Of a stretch of 44,390 nucleotides of DNA, positions 3,222 through 40,972 are shown one piece after another (the first letter of the stretch is position 1; each line of letters begins with the position of its first letter). The position numbers and the translations under genes were made by a program. The notes beneath the pieces are model-generated. The model worked only from the letters and a program-made list of their open reading frames with translations, did no database searches and was not told where the DNA came from. The DNA is from a virus, in IMG/VR virus record IMGVR_UViG_3300006793_000067, positions 1-44,390 of that record; one strand, written 5' to 3'.

Positions 3222-3560
3222 TCATCGGTAGTCGTTCAACACGAGTCGTCCTGTTGTCACGGGGTCCGTGTGCCTCTCCTCGGACACAGGCGTCTCACTC
3301 CGTTCCTGAATAATGGCCTCAGCACGCTGTTTGAATGTCATGGTCCGACGCTTGGCCGGTTTCCCGTCTTTCCAACCACATGGCTCTGTGGTGTACTTGA
3401 CTCGCCACTTTCTCTCACCACTCTTGGTGTTGCTCCAACCTTCTCGTTCAATTCGCCCACGGCACTCGGCGTAGTCGTAGGAATAGGGCTTCTTGGGGTC
3501 GTAGGTCGGGGCTGAGTTCCGGTAGTACAGGGGTGCTCCGCAGTTCGGACAGGGCATCAT
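3222..3560 (-). CDS. Zinc-ribbon protein, 112 aa
   Basis: Begins with CPNC, followed by Cys near residues 33 and 61 (AEC, EPCGW), a likely zinc-ribbon/knuckle, then a basic linker (GKPAKRRTMTFKQRAE). It may bind nucleic acid or a protein partner. The start ATG at 3560 overlaps the upstream stop as ATGA, so it is co-transcribed with the 79-aa gene before it. No family was recognised. Confidence 0.7.
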   Translation of the reverse strand: MMPCPNCGAPLYYRNSAPTYDPKKPYSYDYAECRGRIEREGWSNTKSGERKWRVKYTTEPCGWKDGKPAKRRTMTFKQRAEAIIQERSETPVSEERHTDPVTTGRLVLNDYR

Positions 3561-3796
3561 TCAGCACTCCAGTCAGGGTGGTCCTTCGGGAGGTGTTTTC
3601 GTCGTACTTCGGCCCAATTGGTCAGACGGTCCAGTAGGTTCTCGGCCGCTTGGTCAAATCGCTTCGTGCTGTGCTCGTTGTCGCACATTGCATGCTTCAC
3701 TTCGCTGAGGTCAACCTCAGTCAGAATGTGAGTCAGAATCTCGTATTCGGCGTGTTGAACATTTTTGGCTCGGGACAGCAGGTCTATGTCGGTCAT
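3557..3796 (-). CDS. Small helical protein, 79 aa, unknown
   Basis: ATG 3796 (MTDIDLLSRAKNV) is preferred over an upstream GTG because a TATA box at 3817-3824 places the transcript start close to it. The protein is charged and predicted mostly helical (Asp/Glu/Lys/His-rich, AENLLDRLTNWAEV), with no zinc motif or membrane segment. It is the first gene of a two-gene unit with the zinc-ribbon protein. Function unknown. Confidence 0.7.
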   Translation of the reverse strand: MTDIDLLSRAKNVQHAEYEILTHILTEVDLSEVKHAMCDNEHSTKRFDQAAENLLDRLTNWAEVRRKHLPKDHPDWSAE

Positions 3797-13425: not shown

Positions 13426-13457
13426 GTATCAATATAGGTAGCAAAAGACTATATACC
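13426..13457 (+). promoter_or_regulatory. Plus-strand class A promoter-like element
   Basis: AATATAGGTAGCAAAAGACTATATACC, a copy of the GACTATATACC element found seven more times. The purine-rich AAAAG precedes the TATA box as an archaeal BRE would, so transcription should run rightward into the 3' end of the terminase gene (antisense). There is no start codon at the predicted start. Confidence 0.5.
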
Positions 13458-13473
13458 CCCCACTCATAGGCAC

Positions 13474-15000
13474 TTATGCTCCGAAGGTCCTCATCTCAGG
13501 AACACCGCCACCGTCGCCAATTTCAATCGCCAGGCGGGCATACAGTAGGGCGTGGAATGCGTGGTCGTCGCCGTCTCGTCCGTACTTGGTCAGGGTTTGA
13601 CCTCGCACCGGTCGGAAGTTCTTCTCATCGGTCTCAGCGGAACTCGTCAGGGCGCACCATTCGTGGGCCACCCACGCCAGTGAGTCGTCACCGTAGGGTA
13701 GACTGACCTGCTTGTTCTTGATGGCCTCCACGGTCTGCTCTACATAGGTTGTACGGTCCACGACACACATGAAAATGAGGTTGCGGTTGTTGTCCCGTTT
13801 CTTGTACTCGTAGGGCCTCATTGGCCGAGACGAATAGTAGCACGAGCGTACACGGTCTCCGAACTCCTCTTGCAGTTCCTTGACCTGCCGAGCGCCGTAC
13901 CCTATGTCCGCCACTACCTGTACGCAGTTATAGTCGCTAATCATCTGTTTGAGAATCTCTACCTCGTCGCCCTCTCCCGTTTCACGGCTGTTCAATTTGA
14001 CTGCCTGGAGGATATTGGACTGCGCGTCGGTGATAACCACGGTGGTCTCCCTACCCCAGTCAATACCCATGAAGGTCTCATTGGGGGGAGCGACGCCACG
14101 AACCACTTCGCGTTCGCGGTCAAATGTCGGGAGCACCTCGTCAAATGTCAGCGGCTTGGTGGACCCAGCGAAGAACTCGCCGAGCACTTCGTTGGCGAAT
14201 CGGCGAGGGGCGTAGGTCTCCTTCTTTTGGGCTATGTCCTTCGCTGTAATGTCGGGGTGCATCTCCTGTGAAATGTGGTACCCTATGATGTTGGCTTTGC
14301 TACCAGGACCGTGTACCCACGCTCTCTCCTCGCTGTCCCATTCGCCCTTCGTGGACTTTTCCCATAACTTCCAGAACTCGGACCCTTGCTCACGGGCTGT
14401 ACCCGATATGACGACCCACTTGTAGTCCGATTGAGCGAGCATTTCAATCAGCATCGGGAGTACATCACCGTCGCTGTCTTGGTACTCGTCAATGCAACAG
14501 AGGTCAGCCTCAATACCCAGCAATGCGTGGGCGTCACCCCAGTTAGAATAGGCGTAAAGGTGGTTGAGGGTCTTGGCCCCCACATCAAAGGTTTGGTGGC
14601 TCACAGACGACTTCAAACGGGCCTTCATGAGGGTGCCGTTGTTGATGGAACCCATCATAGCACCGTTGAGCCGCTCCTCAACGAATCGTGTCACCTGTGG
14701 CTGTCGTGGAGCCGTGTAGACGGCGTTGAAGTACGGTATGTTCATCAGGCCATAGAGGAGGAGGTTGCATATTGTCTCGGTCTTCTCCACCTTGCGAGAG
14801 CACTTGAGTACGACCATCTTGGTGGTCTCGCTCTTCTCCAGTGCACCGAAGTGGCGGTAAATCTCGGTCAGGTAATCCCGACCGTCCAACCGGAACGGCT
14901 TGCCGTCAATCGTGCGAAAGTAGCACGACCAGCGGTCAGGGTACAGAGCAATTTCACGCGCCTGCTCGGCCGTCAACCGTCCGGTCTCCCCTTCCGCCAT
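13474..15000 (-). CDS. terL: Terminase large subunit (packaging ATPase-nuclease)
   Basis: 508 aa. The ATPase domain has a Walker A-like KCSRKVEKTET (about 66-76, the variant K/R-x-K-T form of terminases) and Walker B LCCIDEYQD (about 167-175). The C-terminal RNase-H-like nuclease has its acidic residues in FMGIDWGRE (Asp314), QVVADIGYGA (Asp365) and RDGDDHAFHALLYA (Asp478/479). The full active-site set is present, so the enzyme should be functional in cutting and pumping DNA into the portal. ATG 15000 (MAEGETG) is chosen because a promoter (15018-15040) lies at leaderless distance; an upstream ATG at 15054 would overlap the previous gene. Confidence 0.92.
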   Translation of the reverse strand: MAEGETGRLTAEQAREIALYPDRWSCYFRTIDGKPFRLDGRDYLTEIYRHFGALEKSETTKMVVLKCSRKVEKTETICNLLLYGLMNIPYFNAVYTAPRQPQVTRFVEERLNGAMMGSINNGTLMKARLKSSVSHQTFDVGAKTLNHLYAYSNWGDAHALLGIEADLCCIDEYQDSDGDVLPMLIEMLAQSDYKWVVISGTAREQGSEFWKLWEKSTKGEWDSEERAWVHGPGSKANIIGYHISQEMHPDITAKDIAQKKETYAPRRFANEVLGEFFAGSTKPLTFDEVLPTFDREREVVRGVAPPNETFMGIDWGRETTVVITDAQSNILQAVKLNSRETGEGDEVEILKQMISDYNCVQVVADIGYGARQVKELQEEFGDRVRSCYYSSRPMRPYEYKKRDNNRNLIFMCVVDRTTYVEQTVEAIKNKQVSLPYGDDSLAWVAHEWCALTSSAETDEKNFRPVRGQTLTKYGRDGDDHAFHALLYARLAIEIGDGGGVPEMRTFGA

Positions 15001-33474: not shown

Positions 33475-33490
33475 AATGAAAATGTGCGAA

Positions 33491-33502
33491 GTATCGGCTA
33501 AA
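33491..33502 (-). promoter_or_regulatory. Isolated upstream-element copy (GTATCGGCTAAA on +)
   Basis: An exact TTTAGCCGATAC on the minus strand without a TATA box next to it, 20 nt past the end of the gene stopping at 33523. It is the same 12-mer as in the arrays at 34446-34500 and 40214-40317. Confidence 0.6.
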
Positions 33503-34317: not shown

Positions 34318-34345
34318 AGTATAGGTCAACAAAACCTTTATGTAC
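34318..34345 (+). promoter_or_regulatory. Plus-strand class B promoter (copy 1)
   Basis: GAGTATAGGTC then AACAAAACCTTTATGTACT. AAAACC is BRE-like and TTTATGTA the TATA box. Similar boxes at 37651 and 39004 precede related downstream sequence. Confidence 0.55.
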
Positions 34346-34365
34346 TGCCTGCATGTAGAGTAGAA

Positions 34366-34435
34366 TGAGCGCGGGGGCGAGCGGCCCGCTGGAGTGACGG
34401 GCACGGGGGGAGGGTGCGGGTGCATAACAACGCGC
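34366..34435 (+). ncRNA. Candidate small RNA B1
   Basis: GC-rich gene-free sequence beginning about 25 nt after the class B TATA box. It contains GACGGGCACGGGGGGAG, a diverged copy of a block that is identical between the other two members (37714-37734 and 39069-39089). A GCCCG/CGGGC hairpin lies in the middle. No start codon occurs near the predicted transcript start. Ends are not known. Confidence 0.4.
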
Positions 34436-34445
34436 CAAACAAAGA

Positions 34446-34500
34446 GTATCGGCTAAAGTATCGGCTCAATCCAATGCCCAGGGGAAAAGTATCGGCTAAA
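34446..34500 (-). repeat. Triple copy of the promoter upstream element
   Basis: GTATCGGCTAAA (+) starts at 34446, 34458 (ends CAA) and 34489; spacings are 12 and 31 bp. On the minus strand these are TTTAGCCGATAC, the same as the element abutting TATA boxes, but no TATA box follows here. Confidence 0.75.
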
Positions 34501-34590
34501 TGGCGAGCGCCCGACACACGGCCTCAGGGTTGTCAGTGGGGTGCCCGTCGGCGCCACTGGTTCCTGTCCGTCAATGTCGGGTCGCTCTGA
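34501..34590 (-). ncRNA. Candidate RNA unit 1 of four-unit array
   Basis: A promoter at 34609-34627 (minus: GGCGAAACCTTTAATAGGG) predicts a start near 34590. The transcript would begin with GGACTAATCAGAGC and has no ATG, GTG or TTG at the 5' end, unlike protein genes here. It ends in the repeat array at 34446-34500. Sequence 34256-34500 otherwise holds only the promoters, B1 and the repeats listed. Confidence 0.35.
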
Positions 34591-34608
34591 TTAGTCCTAT
34601 ATGCTCCA

Positions 34609-34627
34609 CCCTATTAAAGGTTTCGCC
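34609..34627 (-). promoter_or_regulatory. TATA promoter without a gene (unit 1)
   Basis: Strong TTTAATAGGG box on the minus strand, with no start codon at leaderless distance. Confidence 0.6.
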
Positions 34628-34629
34628 GT

Positions 34630-34966
34630 ATTGGCCTGGATTCAGAGAGGGTGCCGTCTCCACCCGTGGAGGCACTTCAGGCCGTCCAAGGTGGGCTTTT
34701 GGTTCCGCATCCCTATTGAGCGCGGTCCAGGTCAGAGGTTGAACCGCTAAGTCCGTGTCCTCTGCACCGTAGAACTCTCCCCTCCCCGCACCGTTTCCAG
34801 TACGCTGGGGGCCACCCGCCGCTAAACGGGTGGGTTCTCCTCTGTGATTGCTTAGAGAGACAAGCGGCCGGTCTTTCGCCGCTCTCCGGTAGGAGGAGTC
34901 AGGTTTCAGGCGGTCTCTTGGATAGACCTCCGCCCCCGCCGTGGCGGGTCTGTCTCGTGTCTGCTC
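34630..34966 (-). ncRNA. Candidate structured RNA, unit 2 of four-unit array, about 340 nt
   Basis: The promoter at 34988-35009 predicts a start near 34966-34970, beginning with GGACTAATCAGAGC and with no start codon; no minus-strand frame of useful length covers it. Several perfect stems are visible (plus-strand coordinates): CCCGCC 34935-34940 with GGCGGG 34943-34948; GAGGAG 34893-34898 with CTCCTC 34837-34842 enclosing AGCGGC 34863-34868 with GCCGCT 34878-34883; CCACCCG 34812-34818 with CGGGTGG 34827-34833. The closing CTCCTC/GAGGAG helix around an inner hairpin suggests a multi-helix RNA. It does not match RNase P, SRP or tRNA features that I can recall. Confidence 0.5.
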
Positions 34967-34987
34967 TGATTAGTCCTATACGCCGCA

Positions 34988-35009
34988 CCTACTTAAAGGT
35001 TTGGTCGCT
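34988..35009 (-). promoter_or_regulatory. TATA promoter of RNA unit 2
   Basis: The minus strand reads AGCGACCAAACCTTTAAGTAGG; the same CCAAACCTTTAAGTAGG precedes unit 3. Confidence 0.65.
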
Positions 35010-35222
35010 TGGAAGATGGTCCGAGGAGGTCCGACCAAGCACCTGTATGACCAGGGTTTCATCATGGGCGGCCCTCCATCCAGCGGCCCTCATAAGCAGG
35101 CCTACCCATCCGACTTTTCCCCGCATTGGCGTGCGTCTCGGAGTGGGGTTCAGGGTTTTTCGGTGAGGCTCGCCTCCACTTCCAGCACACGCCAATGCGC
35201 CGTCGGTGGGGGTCCGTCTCAT
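34989..35222 (-). CDS. Unit 3 of array: short frame (77 aa) or structured RNA
   Basis: ATG 35222 lies at leaderless distance from the promoter at 35240-35261 and opens MRRTPTDGALACAGSGGEPH. The protein is Arg/Gly/Pro-rich with no motif, and its last codons are the TATA box of unit 2. The same DNA has a perfect 12-bp inverted repeat (CGCATTGGCGTG at 35122-35133, CACGCCAATGCG at 35188-35199) enclosing AGTGG/CCACT and GAGG/CCTC stems. An RNA function is at least as likely as a protein. Confidence 0.35.
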   Translation of the reverse strand: MRRTPTDGALACAGSGGEPHRKTLNPTPRRTPMRGKVGWVGLLMRAAGWRAAHDETLVIQVLGRTSSDHLPSDQTFK

Positions 35223-35239
35223 ACTGTCCTATAAGCCGC

Positions 35240-35261
35240 ACCTACTTAAAGGTTTGGTTAG
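35240..35261 (-). promoter_or_regulatory. TATA promoter of unit 3
   Basis: The minus strand reads CTAACCAAACCTTTAAGTAGG, followed by GGACAGTATGAGACGG, a 5' end shared with unit 4. Confidence 0.65.
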
Positions 35262-35262
35262 T

Positions 35263-35481
35263 TCAGGATGGAAGCCGTCCCCCGCCGCCACCACAGCGGC
35301 GAGGGTTCTCGGGAGCCGCCCTTGGCCATCCGAGTCCACCAGGCCCCGCACTTGCCGACTTGCCCCCTTCCCGCTCTTGGGCGCGGGTCGGGTCGTCCTT
35401 GGGCGTCAGGTTGTCCGTGGTTAGCGGAGTCCCCGTCGGCTCGCGGCTGTTGTGTGGGTGGTTCCTGTTGGTCCGTCTCAT
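35263..35481 (-). CDS. Unit 4 of array: short frame (72 aa) or structured RNA
   Basis: ATG 35481 lies at leaderless distance from the promoter at 35498-35520 and opens MRRTNRNHPHNSREPTGTPL; low-complexity Gly/Arg/Pro end (CGGGGGRLPS). The first 15 nt around the start (CAGTATGAGACGGACC) are shared with unit 3 although the proteins differ otherwise. A CCCGC/GCGGG hairpin lies inside. It could be a small basic protein or an RNA. Confidence 0.35.
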   Translation of the reverse strand: MRRTNRNHPHNSREPTGTPLTTDNLTPKDDPTRAQEREGGKSASAGPGGLGWPRAAPENPRRCGGGGGRLPS

Positions 35482-35497
35482 ACTGTCCTATAAGCCA

Positions 35498-35520
35498 CCG
35501 GTACTTAAAGGTTTGCTCGG
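35498..35520 (-). promoter_or_regulatory. TATA promoter of unit 4
   Basis: The minus strand reads CCGAGCAAACCTTTAAGTACCGG; it overlaps the 3' end of the upstream gene. Confidence 0.65.
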
Positions 35521-36059: not shown

Positions 36060-36096
36060 AAATATAGGTCCGCTTGTCCATGTCCGATGGGCTGAC

Positions 36097-36107
36097 GGTA
36101 TATAGTC
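36097..36107 (-). promoter_or_regulatory. Minus-strand class A element beside the AT-rich tract
   Basis: The minus strand reads ATAAAGACTATATACCGTCAG. Opposite orientation to most copies; it points from the AT-rich tract toward the gene at 36014. Confidence 0.45.
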
Positions 36108-36162
36108 TTTATCTATAATATATAATTATTATATAATATAATAAATAGAAATAAATTAAATG
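36105..36162. other. AT-rich tract, candidate DNA-unwinding element
   Basis: About 58 bp almost purely A/T (TATAATATATAATTATTATA and onward) in an otherwise GC-rich window. It carries no gene. Adjacent are a GT/AC hairpin (36181-36209) and a 20-bp inverted repeat, an arrangement seen at replication origins. Confidence 0.6.
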
Positions 36163-36180
36163 GTGAGGATGCCCTATGGG

Positions 36181-36209
36181 ACACACACATGTTGAGGTGT
36201 GTGTGTGCA
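36181..36209. repeat. ACACACAC / GTGTGTGT inverted repeat
   Basis: ACACACAC at 36181-36188 and GTGTGTGTG at about 36200-36208 can form a hairpin over a short loop containing ATGTTGAGG. It may be a protein-binding or cruciform site near the AT-rich tract. Confidence 0.55.
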
Positions 36210-36272
36210 AAGGGAAGGCCACTTCCCTCAATTATTGCCCGCACTCATATACCAGGCCTCGCAGTGTGCCCA

Positions 36273-37608: not shown

Positions 37609-37628
37609 GATTACAGATGGGAGGTCGC

Positions 37629-37650
37629 CCCTATTAAAGACTATCGGTCA
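37629..37650 (-). promoter_or_regulatory. TATA promoter (gene starting at 37608)
   Basis: The minus strand reads TGACCGATAGTCTTTAATAGGGG; its upstream element touches the divergent class B promoter. Confidence 0.7.
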
Positions 37651-37667
37651 TCAAAACCTTTATGTAC
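37651..37667 (+). promoter_or_regulatory. Plus-strand class B promoter (copy 2)
   Basis: TCAAAACCTTTATGTAC, identical over AAAACCTTTATGTAC to copies 1 and 3. Confidence 0.6.
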
Positions 37668-37687
37668 CCGCATCGTATAGTAGGGTT

Positions 37688-37760
37688 GAGGCGGACCCAA
37701 TGGGGATGGCTGAGGACGAGGGCACGCGGGGAGACTCCGTCTCCCGTCCGTGACCGGTCC
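37688..37760 (+). ncRNA. Candidate small RNA B2
   Basis: Starts about 25 nt after the class B TATA box. The 21 nt at 37714-37734 are identical to 39069-39089 in B3. A GGGAGAC-TCC-GTCTCCC hairpin follows directly (about 37729-37746). No gene is supported on either strand between 37609 and 37854. Ends are not known. Confidence 0.45.
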
Positions 37761-38963: not shown

Positions 38964-38983
38964 GTTTCAATCCAAGCGGCCTC

Positions 38984-39006
38984 CCCTATTAAACCTATCG
39001 GTGAAC
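38984..39006 (-). promoter_or_regulatory. TATA promoter (gene starting at 38963)
   Basis: The minus strand reads GTTCACCGATAGGTTTAATAGGGG; it abuts the class B plus-strand promoter. Confidence 0.7.
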
Positions 39007-39021
39007 AAAACCTTTATGTAC
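39004..39021 (+). promoter_or_regulatory. Plus-strand class B promoter (copy 3)
   Basis: AACAAAACCTTTATGTACC, followed by unit B3. Confidence 0.6.
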
Positions 39022-39041
39022 CTCCAGTGTGTAGGATGGAT

Positions 39042-39100
39042 TGCGGCGCACCTGATGAGGACGGCCAAGGACGAGGGCACGCGGGGAGATGCCGTCTCAA
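39042..39100 (+). ncRNA. Candidate small RNA B3
   Basis: Begins about 25 nt after the class B TATA box. It carries the 21-nt block (39069-39089) shared with B2, ending in a shorter GAGA/TCTC hairpin. It is followed directly by a class A element. The stretch 38964-39319 has no supported gene on either strand. Confidence 0.45.
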
Positions 39101-40068: not shown

Positions 40069-40213
40069 TTATGGGACCTACACTTTCCTTTTGGGTCAGG
40101 AGACTATCAGTAGCAAACCTTTATAGGTGTACCCCGACCTGCTCAAACCATGCGGAGAGGCCGAGCGCAAGCCACCGACCTGGACCCCGACTCAAACAAC
40201 CTGGACCGCCGAA

Positions 40214-40317
40214 GGTATCGGCTAACAATGCTCCCTGGCTCAAGTATCGGCTAAAACAACCTGGAAACCCGAAAGTATCGGCTAAATCAATGGCCGACTC
40301 TGAAGGTATCGGCTAAA
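40214..40317. repeat. Iteron array: four GTATCGGCTA(A/C)A units, 30-31 bp period
   Basis: GTATCGGCTAA at 40214, 40244, 40275 and 40306 (intervals 30, 31, 31 bp, close to three helical turns). Spacers are related (CAACCTGG, CTCCCTGG, CAACCTGG). The reverse complement TTTAGCCGATAC equals the element next to TATA boxes across the window, but no TATA box is present. It is an iteron-like cluster in the gene-free stretch 39906-40363 between the Ala/Thr-rich gene and the small terminase gene. Confidence 0.85.
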
Positions 40318-40363: not shown

Positions 40364-40972
40364 TTACTGACCCTCGTCGTCGCTATCGGCGTCAATAACC
40401 TCGGCATCTACATCTATGGTCCTGAGTTCTTCCTGAACAACCTGACGGAACTGCTCCACTGGGTCGTAGCCAATGTTCACCACGACCTGAGGCTTCGCAT
40501 CCTGAGCACCTGACATTTTGTCCATGGCGTCTTGCTGTTTGACCAGCCCCTGTACCATGAACGAGACATTGTTCAATTTGCTCACATTGTCGGCCAGCGA
40601 ATGTGCTTGGTGCACCAACCCCTCGGTCAGCGACAACATGCGCTTCCTACGGGCATACGATTCCAAACGAAGCCAGTCTGTATCGCCCATTTCAGCACGG
40701 GCTATGGAAAGGTGACGGAGTTCCTCTGACTGCAACCTCGCCAGTCGCATAAGGCGCTTGCCTTGCTCTCGCGTGAGAGTCCTATCCAAATCGGCTTCTC
40801 CGAGCCTCCGCATTATTTCACTGTCTTTGTAGCCCTGCACCATGAGCATGGCTGTCCAACGGATGAGAGACTCGTCAATGCCGTCTGTTTTGCCTGCTCC
40901 CCAAGCGTCTATCGCAGTCACTTTCGCTTCGGGTCCGTCGTCCCACTCGGGGTCGTCCCAGTCCTCGGTCAT
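40364..40972 (-). CDS. Probable terminase small subunit, 202 aa
   Basis: Acidic at both ends. Residues about 35-75 contain a helix-turn-helix-like segment (AMLMVQGYKDSEIMRRLGEADLDRTLTREQGKRL), then a long coiled-coil helix (EELRHLSIARAEMGDTDWLRLESYARRKRMLSL; LVHQAHSLADNVSKLNNVSFMVQGLVKQQ) and an acidic C-terminus. DNA-recognition helix, oligomerisation coil and acidic tail is the common small-terminase layout. The size also fits. It lies far from terL (15 kb), which is unusual, so the call is moderate. The iteron array lies immediately downstream and could be its recognition site. Confidence 0.6.
   Translation of the reverse strand: MTEDWDDPEWDDGPEAKVTAIDAWGAGKTDGIDESLIRWTAMLMVQGYKDSEIMRRLGEADLDRTLTREQGKRLMRLARLQSEELRHLSIARAEMGDTDWLRLESYARRKRMLSLTEGLVHQAHSLADNVSKLNNVSFMVQGLVKQQDAMDKMSGAQDAKPQVVVNIGYDPVEQFRQVVQEELRTIDVDAEVIDADSDDEGQ

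Follow-up and report, generated by a model that had tools for sequence, protein, structure and literature searches.

Promoter-led non-coding units in an archaeal-type tailed virus, and a structured RNA family represented in one of them

What might be transcribed from the biggest non-coding gap of a viral contig, in which four promoters follow one another on the same strand? The window (the whole stretch of DNA analysed here, an IMG/VR viral contig of 44,390 bases) has genes for an HK97-type capsid protein, a prohead protease, a portal and a terminase, and it also codes for a family-B DNA polymerase (PolB), an RFC-type clamp loader and a collagen-repeat tail protein; its promoters are of the archaeal type. 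To our knowledge, structured non-coding RNAs of archaeal viruses are almost undescribed. Neither DNA nor PolB searches of a phage collection found a close relative, the closest PolB being ∼24% identical and the best matches being haloarchaeal tailed viruses; IMG/VR holds 33 PolB relatives. Searches with the neighbouring protein P0003 found no relatives, and those with g27798 returned already known records only and none in genome_contigs. The window virus is a tailed virus whose archaeal hosts are probably marine, and a link to viruses of marine Poseidoniales (PMC12999244, PMC13108676) is a likely supposition. In the papers searched on Poseidoniales viruses no report of a noncoding RNA was found, and the magrovirus papers listed with ‘RNA’ do not, by their titles and abstracts, concern viral RNAs.

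Four promoter-led units in one non-coding gap

The gap spans 34,439–35,504 (1066 nt) and contains four minus-strand units, each headed by an archaeal TATA promoter. In 5′ to 3′ order along the minus strand, followed by the elements at the far end, the features are:

35259..35515, minus strand: unit 4, TATA promoter AAACCTTTAAGTACC, box from 35514 with 0 mismatches; apparently non-coding, predicted start ∼35481–35485
35005..35256, minus strand: unit 3, TATA box from 35255; apparently non-coding, predicted start near 35226; 12-bp perfect stem 35122–35133/35188–35199
34625..35003, minus strand: unit 2, TATA box from 35002; putative structured RNA of ∼350 nt, predicted start ∼34976
34480..34624, minus strand: unit 1, variant TATA promoter with box from 34623; predicted start ∼34597
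34443..34497, minus strand: AGCCGATACTTT in three copies, shortly after the unit 1 hairpin
34332..34440, plus strand: convergent unit headed by a TATA promoter of its own, AAACCTTTATGTA, with motif GGCACGGGGGGAGGGTGCGGGTGC at ∼34400, a member of a second short-RNA family

The first-pass annotation had described four near-identical promoters. Three of them are identical, as AAACCTTTAAGTANNNNNGGCNTATAGGAC occurs without mismatch at 35514, 35255 and 35002 on the minus strand (3 copies versus 0.00 expected in shuffles), whereas unit 1 has a weaker version, AAACCTTTAATAGGG...TATAGGAC, with its TATA at 34623. Promoters of this type are not confined to the array, and related boxes on either strand also precede genes for proteins and further units. 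The shared 5′ ends were found exactly as described, GGACTAATCAGAGC in units 1 and 2 and CAGTATGAGACGGACC in units 3 and 4. Host RNA polymerase would start ∼27 nt downstream of each TATA box, at the shared 5′ end, and each unit would yield an untranslated RNA that folds. Similarity among the units themselves is weak and limited to units 1 and 4 and units 3 and 4 (p 0.05 and 0.03), and units 1, 3 and 4 have no detectable relatives outside the window record. Tandem promoter-led non-coding units are also present in two other virus groups, G004 and G026, with two such units in each; in G026 they have a common promoter and 5′ end. Together with the tandem promoters of the window, these support the term ‘array’.

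Units 3 and 4 each have an ATG frame at leaderless distance from the TATA box (77 and 72 aa), and their 5′ ends resemble those of viral genes. Hence one may ask if these two units encode small leaderless proteins (MRRT...), of which units 1 and 2 would be decayed copies. We regard this as very unlikely. The codon log-odds of the two frames, −0.17 for unit 3 and −0.51 for unit 4, equal those of random frames of the region (−0.29, sd 0.24), while genes of the window virus, the small ones among them too, lie between 0.07 and 0.53; tested as leaderless small protein genes, the frames do not have the codon usage of the virus's genes. Neither frame has a Pfam match, that of unit 3 continues through the next promoter, and unit 2 shows RNA covariation instead. 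Units 1 and 2 hold no ORF of 60 aa on the minus strand. The first-pass annotation had them without any start codon, which is accurate for the leaderless position, where neither has an ATG, but a single ATG lies inside unit 2, and both units contain GTG/TTG. No conserved protein frame, which had been named as counter-evidence to structured RNAs, runs through the array, and all frames of units 1–4 and of the relatives' units have random-like scores. By these sequence measures units 3 and 4 are best read as non-coding, and all four units look non-coding.

Fold energies were compared with those of dinucleotide shuffles, with 336 windows sampled. Three of the five lowest z values fell in the array, at −4.9 for unit 3 (the lowest of all 336), −4.0 for unit 1 and −3.8 for unit 2; for whole units the values were −2.1, −2.4 and −2.8 in the same order. 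Unit 4 showed no excess structure by either approach (z ∼−1.0). The 12-bp perfect inverted repeat reported for unit 3 is present (35122–35133/35188–35199), unit 1 is mostly one long hairpin (34505–34587), and the unit 2 helix said to enclose another hairpin was recovered at 34730–34768 as CAGAGG[..GGAC-UUAGCG-GUUC..]CCUCUG.

The three-way junction of unit 2 and its relatives

Two of the PolB relatives, G004 (L005/L093) and G029 (L030/L056), extend to the corresponding place upstream of PolB and have their largest non-coding gaps there, of 976 and 996 nt. The G004 gap contains two promoter-led units, one of which, unit B, aligns with unit 2 of the window (Smith-Waterman z 9.3), with GAGAGTTCTACGGTGCAG and a UUAGCGG hairpin loop in common. 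From this comparison and those below, the following elements of unit 2 were defined:

34766..34839, minus strand: unit 2 core, with GAGAAC at 34834–34839, P2 at 34812–34833, P3 at 34779–34811, AGA-GUUCU at 34771–34778, and ACGGU
34730..34768, minus strand: P4, GGU-CAGAGG...CCUCUG-ACC around GGAC-UUAGCG-GUUC

In G004 unit B the P4 layout is kept with altered pairs, GGU..AGGG[GGC-UUAGCG-GCC]CCCU..ACC. The motif GAGAGTTCTA[CT]GGT was found in non-coding stretches of G011, G012, G028, G016, G031 and G023, and with one mismatch in G026; over whole records it occurs in 8 of the 33 PolB relatives, and the reversed control pattern in 0. AGAAC lies upstream of the motif in all motif-bearing relatives, with an interior of 55–131 nt. 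The descriptor GAGAACCN{50,80}GAGAGTTCTAYGG, run over 2.9 million viral contigs, gave 11 matches, consisting of 10 non-coding members and one chance coding match. Apart from G004, only chance matches came from GAGTTCTACGGTGCAG and from the initial gapped pattern of the core. A TTGAGG version had two matches in genome_contigs, in a betaproteobacterial MAG and a Thermotogota MAG, which were set aside as not member-like in appearance. Altogether the core is carried by 14 records from about eight lineages; most relatives are fragments, so that its spread within the group is uncertain. It occurs once in the window, in unit 2, with units 1, 3 and 4 lacking it, and in G026 it lies in the second of the two tandem units.

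Newly found members are L120 and L121 (G026-like), L123 (G023-like) and L122. The last is a 10-kb contig of a tailed virus, whose terminase is only ∼25% identical to known ones and in which no relative of any of the 18 window proteins searched was found; at 1990–2300 it has the predicted three-way-junction RNA with its own TATA box and a 5′ end, TTAGTTTGTA, common to L120 and L121. The predicted RNA size across members ranges from roughly 200 to 800 nt, and all members tested are non-coding in six frames. A further unit of ∼580 nt in G029 (L030 1340–1925) is without the core motif and has a 5′ end, AUAGAUUGUUGGGG..CCCC..CCGAAG, in common with the G031 RNA (L111 886–1000).

The core has the layout GAGAAC-P2-P3-AGA-GUUCU-AYGG, a predicted three-way junction. 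Between AGAAC and AGAGUUCU, P2 and P3 touch or almost touch one another and the flanking motifs, and such directly adjoining hairpins are rare in shuffled interiors (combined p 4.5e-5). Unit 2 of the window has the layout of the new family with strict zero offset (p 0.0005). The junction is the minimum-energy fold, unforced, in the window, G004 and G023, where it includes P1 (AGAAC/GUUCU); in the other six core folds P1 costs 1.2 to 5.8 kcal/mol. Since the P1 sequence is invariant in all members and RNAalifold pairs the AGAGUU strand differently on G011/G012/G028, the P1 helix remains a prediction. P3 is not clear-cut in L122, and core loops vary widely in length.

The flanking stretches GAGAAC and AGAGUUCUAYGG are invariant, whereas the sequences of P2 and P3 are rewritten between lineages with pairing retained. 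Because MAFFT alignment of entire cores put the hairpins out of register, the arms used in the pair counts were hand-aligned; the counts were also run on six lineages. With their own arms, P2 and P3 pair at 24 of 25 and 19 of 20 positions, versus 15.2 and 12.0 when the arms of other lineages are substituted by permutation. Across seven lineages, 20 double-change cells were counted versus 6.5 in shuffles, with 0 of 500 shuffles reaching this number and 1 to 7 after sliding by 1–3 columns, although these numbers lean towards structure, since the count used hand-picked, concatenated arms from which single bulged bases and one junction base were left out. For the full ∼500-nt RNA of G011/G012/G028 (MAFFT, RNAalifold), 15 double-change pairs were found versus 6.0 (0/500; slid 0–2) and P2 and P3 were recovered; this test is free of the hand-picked-arm weakness, but its structure was derived from that very alignment of three close relatives. 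Moreover, L120 (178–266) and L121 (7043–7141) are near-identical outside the core, with P2 and P3 replaced.

The covariance analysis proposed by the first-pass annotation came out in favour of RNA for unit 2, both in the comparison of seven divergent lineages and in a separate one that covered the entire RNA in three relatives. On the descriptor search and the covariation, unit 2 belongs to a previously undescribed family of predicted RNAs, present in at least a dozen other virus genomes with compensating base changes. For the array as a whole, the proposal of structured viral RNAs holds for unit 2, with covariation and relatives, and for the tandem promoters; units 1, 3 and 4 are without comparative support, and unit 4 is also without excess structure. 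In units 1, 3 and 4 the same promoters probably precede RNAs that have diverged or are unrelated.

The heptamer UUAGCGG lies in the loops of differing hairpins (P2, P4, P3), in the window at 34811–34833 and 34740–34760 and also in L043, L005 and L122, and it is further found upstream of the core in G011/G012. It is possibly a protein-binding motif.

Neighbouring elements and modes of action

The second short family, to which the convergent unit belongs, is promoter-led and non-coding. Its motif and promoter (AAACCTTTATGTA or AAACCTTTATAGG) also occur at 37654–37760 and 39008–39100 in the window and twice each in G004 and G029. Within it, GGCACGNGGGGAG lies at 34398, 37719 and 39074 (plus strand), at −3838 and −622 in L093 and at −16076 and −13795 in L056, often followed by ...CCGTCTC, and the window stretches 37628–37743 and 38983–39098 share 81% identity. 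In the window, G004 and G029 alike (3/3 genomes), one copy runs convergently towards the RNA array. The element GAAAAGACTATATACC, often after AGTATAGGT, was observed in numerous gaps between genes, at 13442, 31832, 33768, 38204 and 39113 (plus strand) and at 36112 and 40073 (minus strand); G004 and G029 have it too. It resembles another class of promoter and may serve additional non-coding RNAs.

The repeat AGCCGATACTTT has 8 copies in the window versus 0.06 expected, at 34443–34497, 33488–33499 and 40212–40314. The cluster directly after the gene at 40364–40972, a possible terminase small subunit, keeps its position in distant relatives (L056 12550–12640, L058, L066, L057). The AGCCGATACTTT repeat cluster is a candidate origin or packaging site. 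An AT-rich stretch beside a CA/TG-repeat hairpin (GACACACACA...TGTGTGTGTG), at 36090–36230 in the window, L030 ∼480–620, L066 ∼14310–14430 and L008 ∼3500–3620, is another possible origin.

Such repeats stand directly after the array, and similar ones follow the RNA units of G004 and G029, which would suit an element acting as DNA, i.e. a replication origin or packaging site where the palindromes form DNA hairpins or protein sites. This reading is unlikely, considering that every unit has a strand-specific promoter, that G-U pairs keep the helices in G026, G011 and L120, and that neither GAGAAC nor AGAGUUCUAYGG varies; furthermore, the core of G023, G026 and G012 sits elsewhere, away from AGCCGATACTTT-like repeats. 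Another alternative is a cis-acting leader, in which the RNA, as a riboswitch or attenuator, would form the regulatory 5′ region of the gene after it. We consider this improbable: a large ORF does follow within ∼200 nt on the same strand in G016/G031, but a further promoter comes after each unit of the window, with repeats and a convergent promoter at the end, the gene after the RNA is convergent in G023 and G026, and there is no constant downstream gene.

We favour, with reasonable confidence, the reading of the block as a group of RNA genes encoded by the virus, with unit 2 belonging to a new structured-RNA family of archaeal-type tailed viruses that would act in trans. In this RNA, the hairpins P2 and P3 would directly adjoin each other and be closed by invariant AGAAC/GUUCU; invariant AYGG and P4 come next. 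The layout of an invariant junction with variable arms suggests a trans-acting RNA with a junction-bound partner; the junction may be where a conserved partner, from the virus or the host, binds, and the P2/P3 arms may be variable or exchangeable limbs. Going further, one could tentatively imagine a modular RNA effector, where the junction binds one conserved partner, the arms are swapped as a cassette and the tandem units are a bank of variants. The arm exchange in L120/L121 would fit an arms race with host defence or a specificity module.

The family is defined by a searchable descriptor, GAGAAC-P2-P3-AGAGUUCUAYGG, with covariation support and members in several virus lineages, and it can be sought in existing marine metatranscriptomes. 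A fixed junction with rewritten arms is unusual and testable, and the invariant junction is usable as bait for finding the putative partner.

Comparison with known RNAs

Covariance models of Rfam 15 (4227 families, including GOLLD, ROOL, RNase P, SRP and group I/II introns) gave no gathering-level match in the window, and permissive searches of four regions gave nothing plausible, in agreement with the ‘undescribed type’ of the first-pass annotation. Group II intron and rRNA-fragment identities were dropped for want of Rfam support, and ARAGORN found no tRNA or tmRNA in the window.

GOLLD and ROOL form RNA-only cages. The pRNA of phi29 assembles into a ring through complementary (kissing) loops and is needed by the packaging motor. 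Like the predicted RNA of the unit 2 family, pRNA is a three-way-junction RNA of a tailed virus, with variable sequence and constant layout (see also PMC12670572). A packaging RNA of this type, acting on the terminase motor, would suit G023, where the RNA lies directly after the terminase gene. It is nevertheless extremely unlikely for the unit 2 family, which does not adjoin the terminase in the window, G012 and G028 and has no constant terminase link. In unit 2 of the window, the P2 loop UUUAGCGG and the P3 loop GAAA are not complementary, so that no interlocking loops are seen; the RNAs of the family are larger, of variable size (∼200 to 800 nt) and have other junction sequences.

Metagenomes of bacteria and archaea have likewise yielded candidate structured RNAs, found by comparative genomics without a known function (e.g. 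PMC2864571), but the unit 2 family matches none of the 4227 Rfam families and occurs in tailed viruses with archaeal-type promoters. The large structured RNAs GOLLD and ROOL of phages and prophages (PMC12286853) are also long, ornate, virus-encoded non-coding RNAs of unknown function that were found by comparative analysis. In contrast to these, the unit 2 family has no Rfam match to either and no tRNA genes in the window, and it is set apart by its archaeal promoters, by rewritten arms around a three-way junction that is compact and invariant, and by neighbouring promoter-led units.
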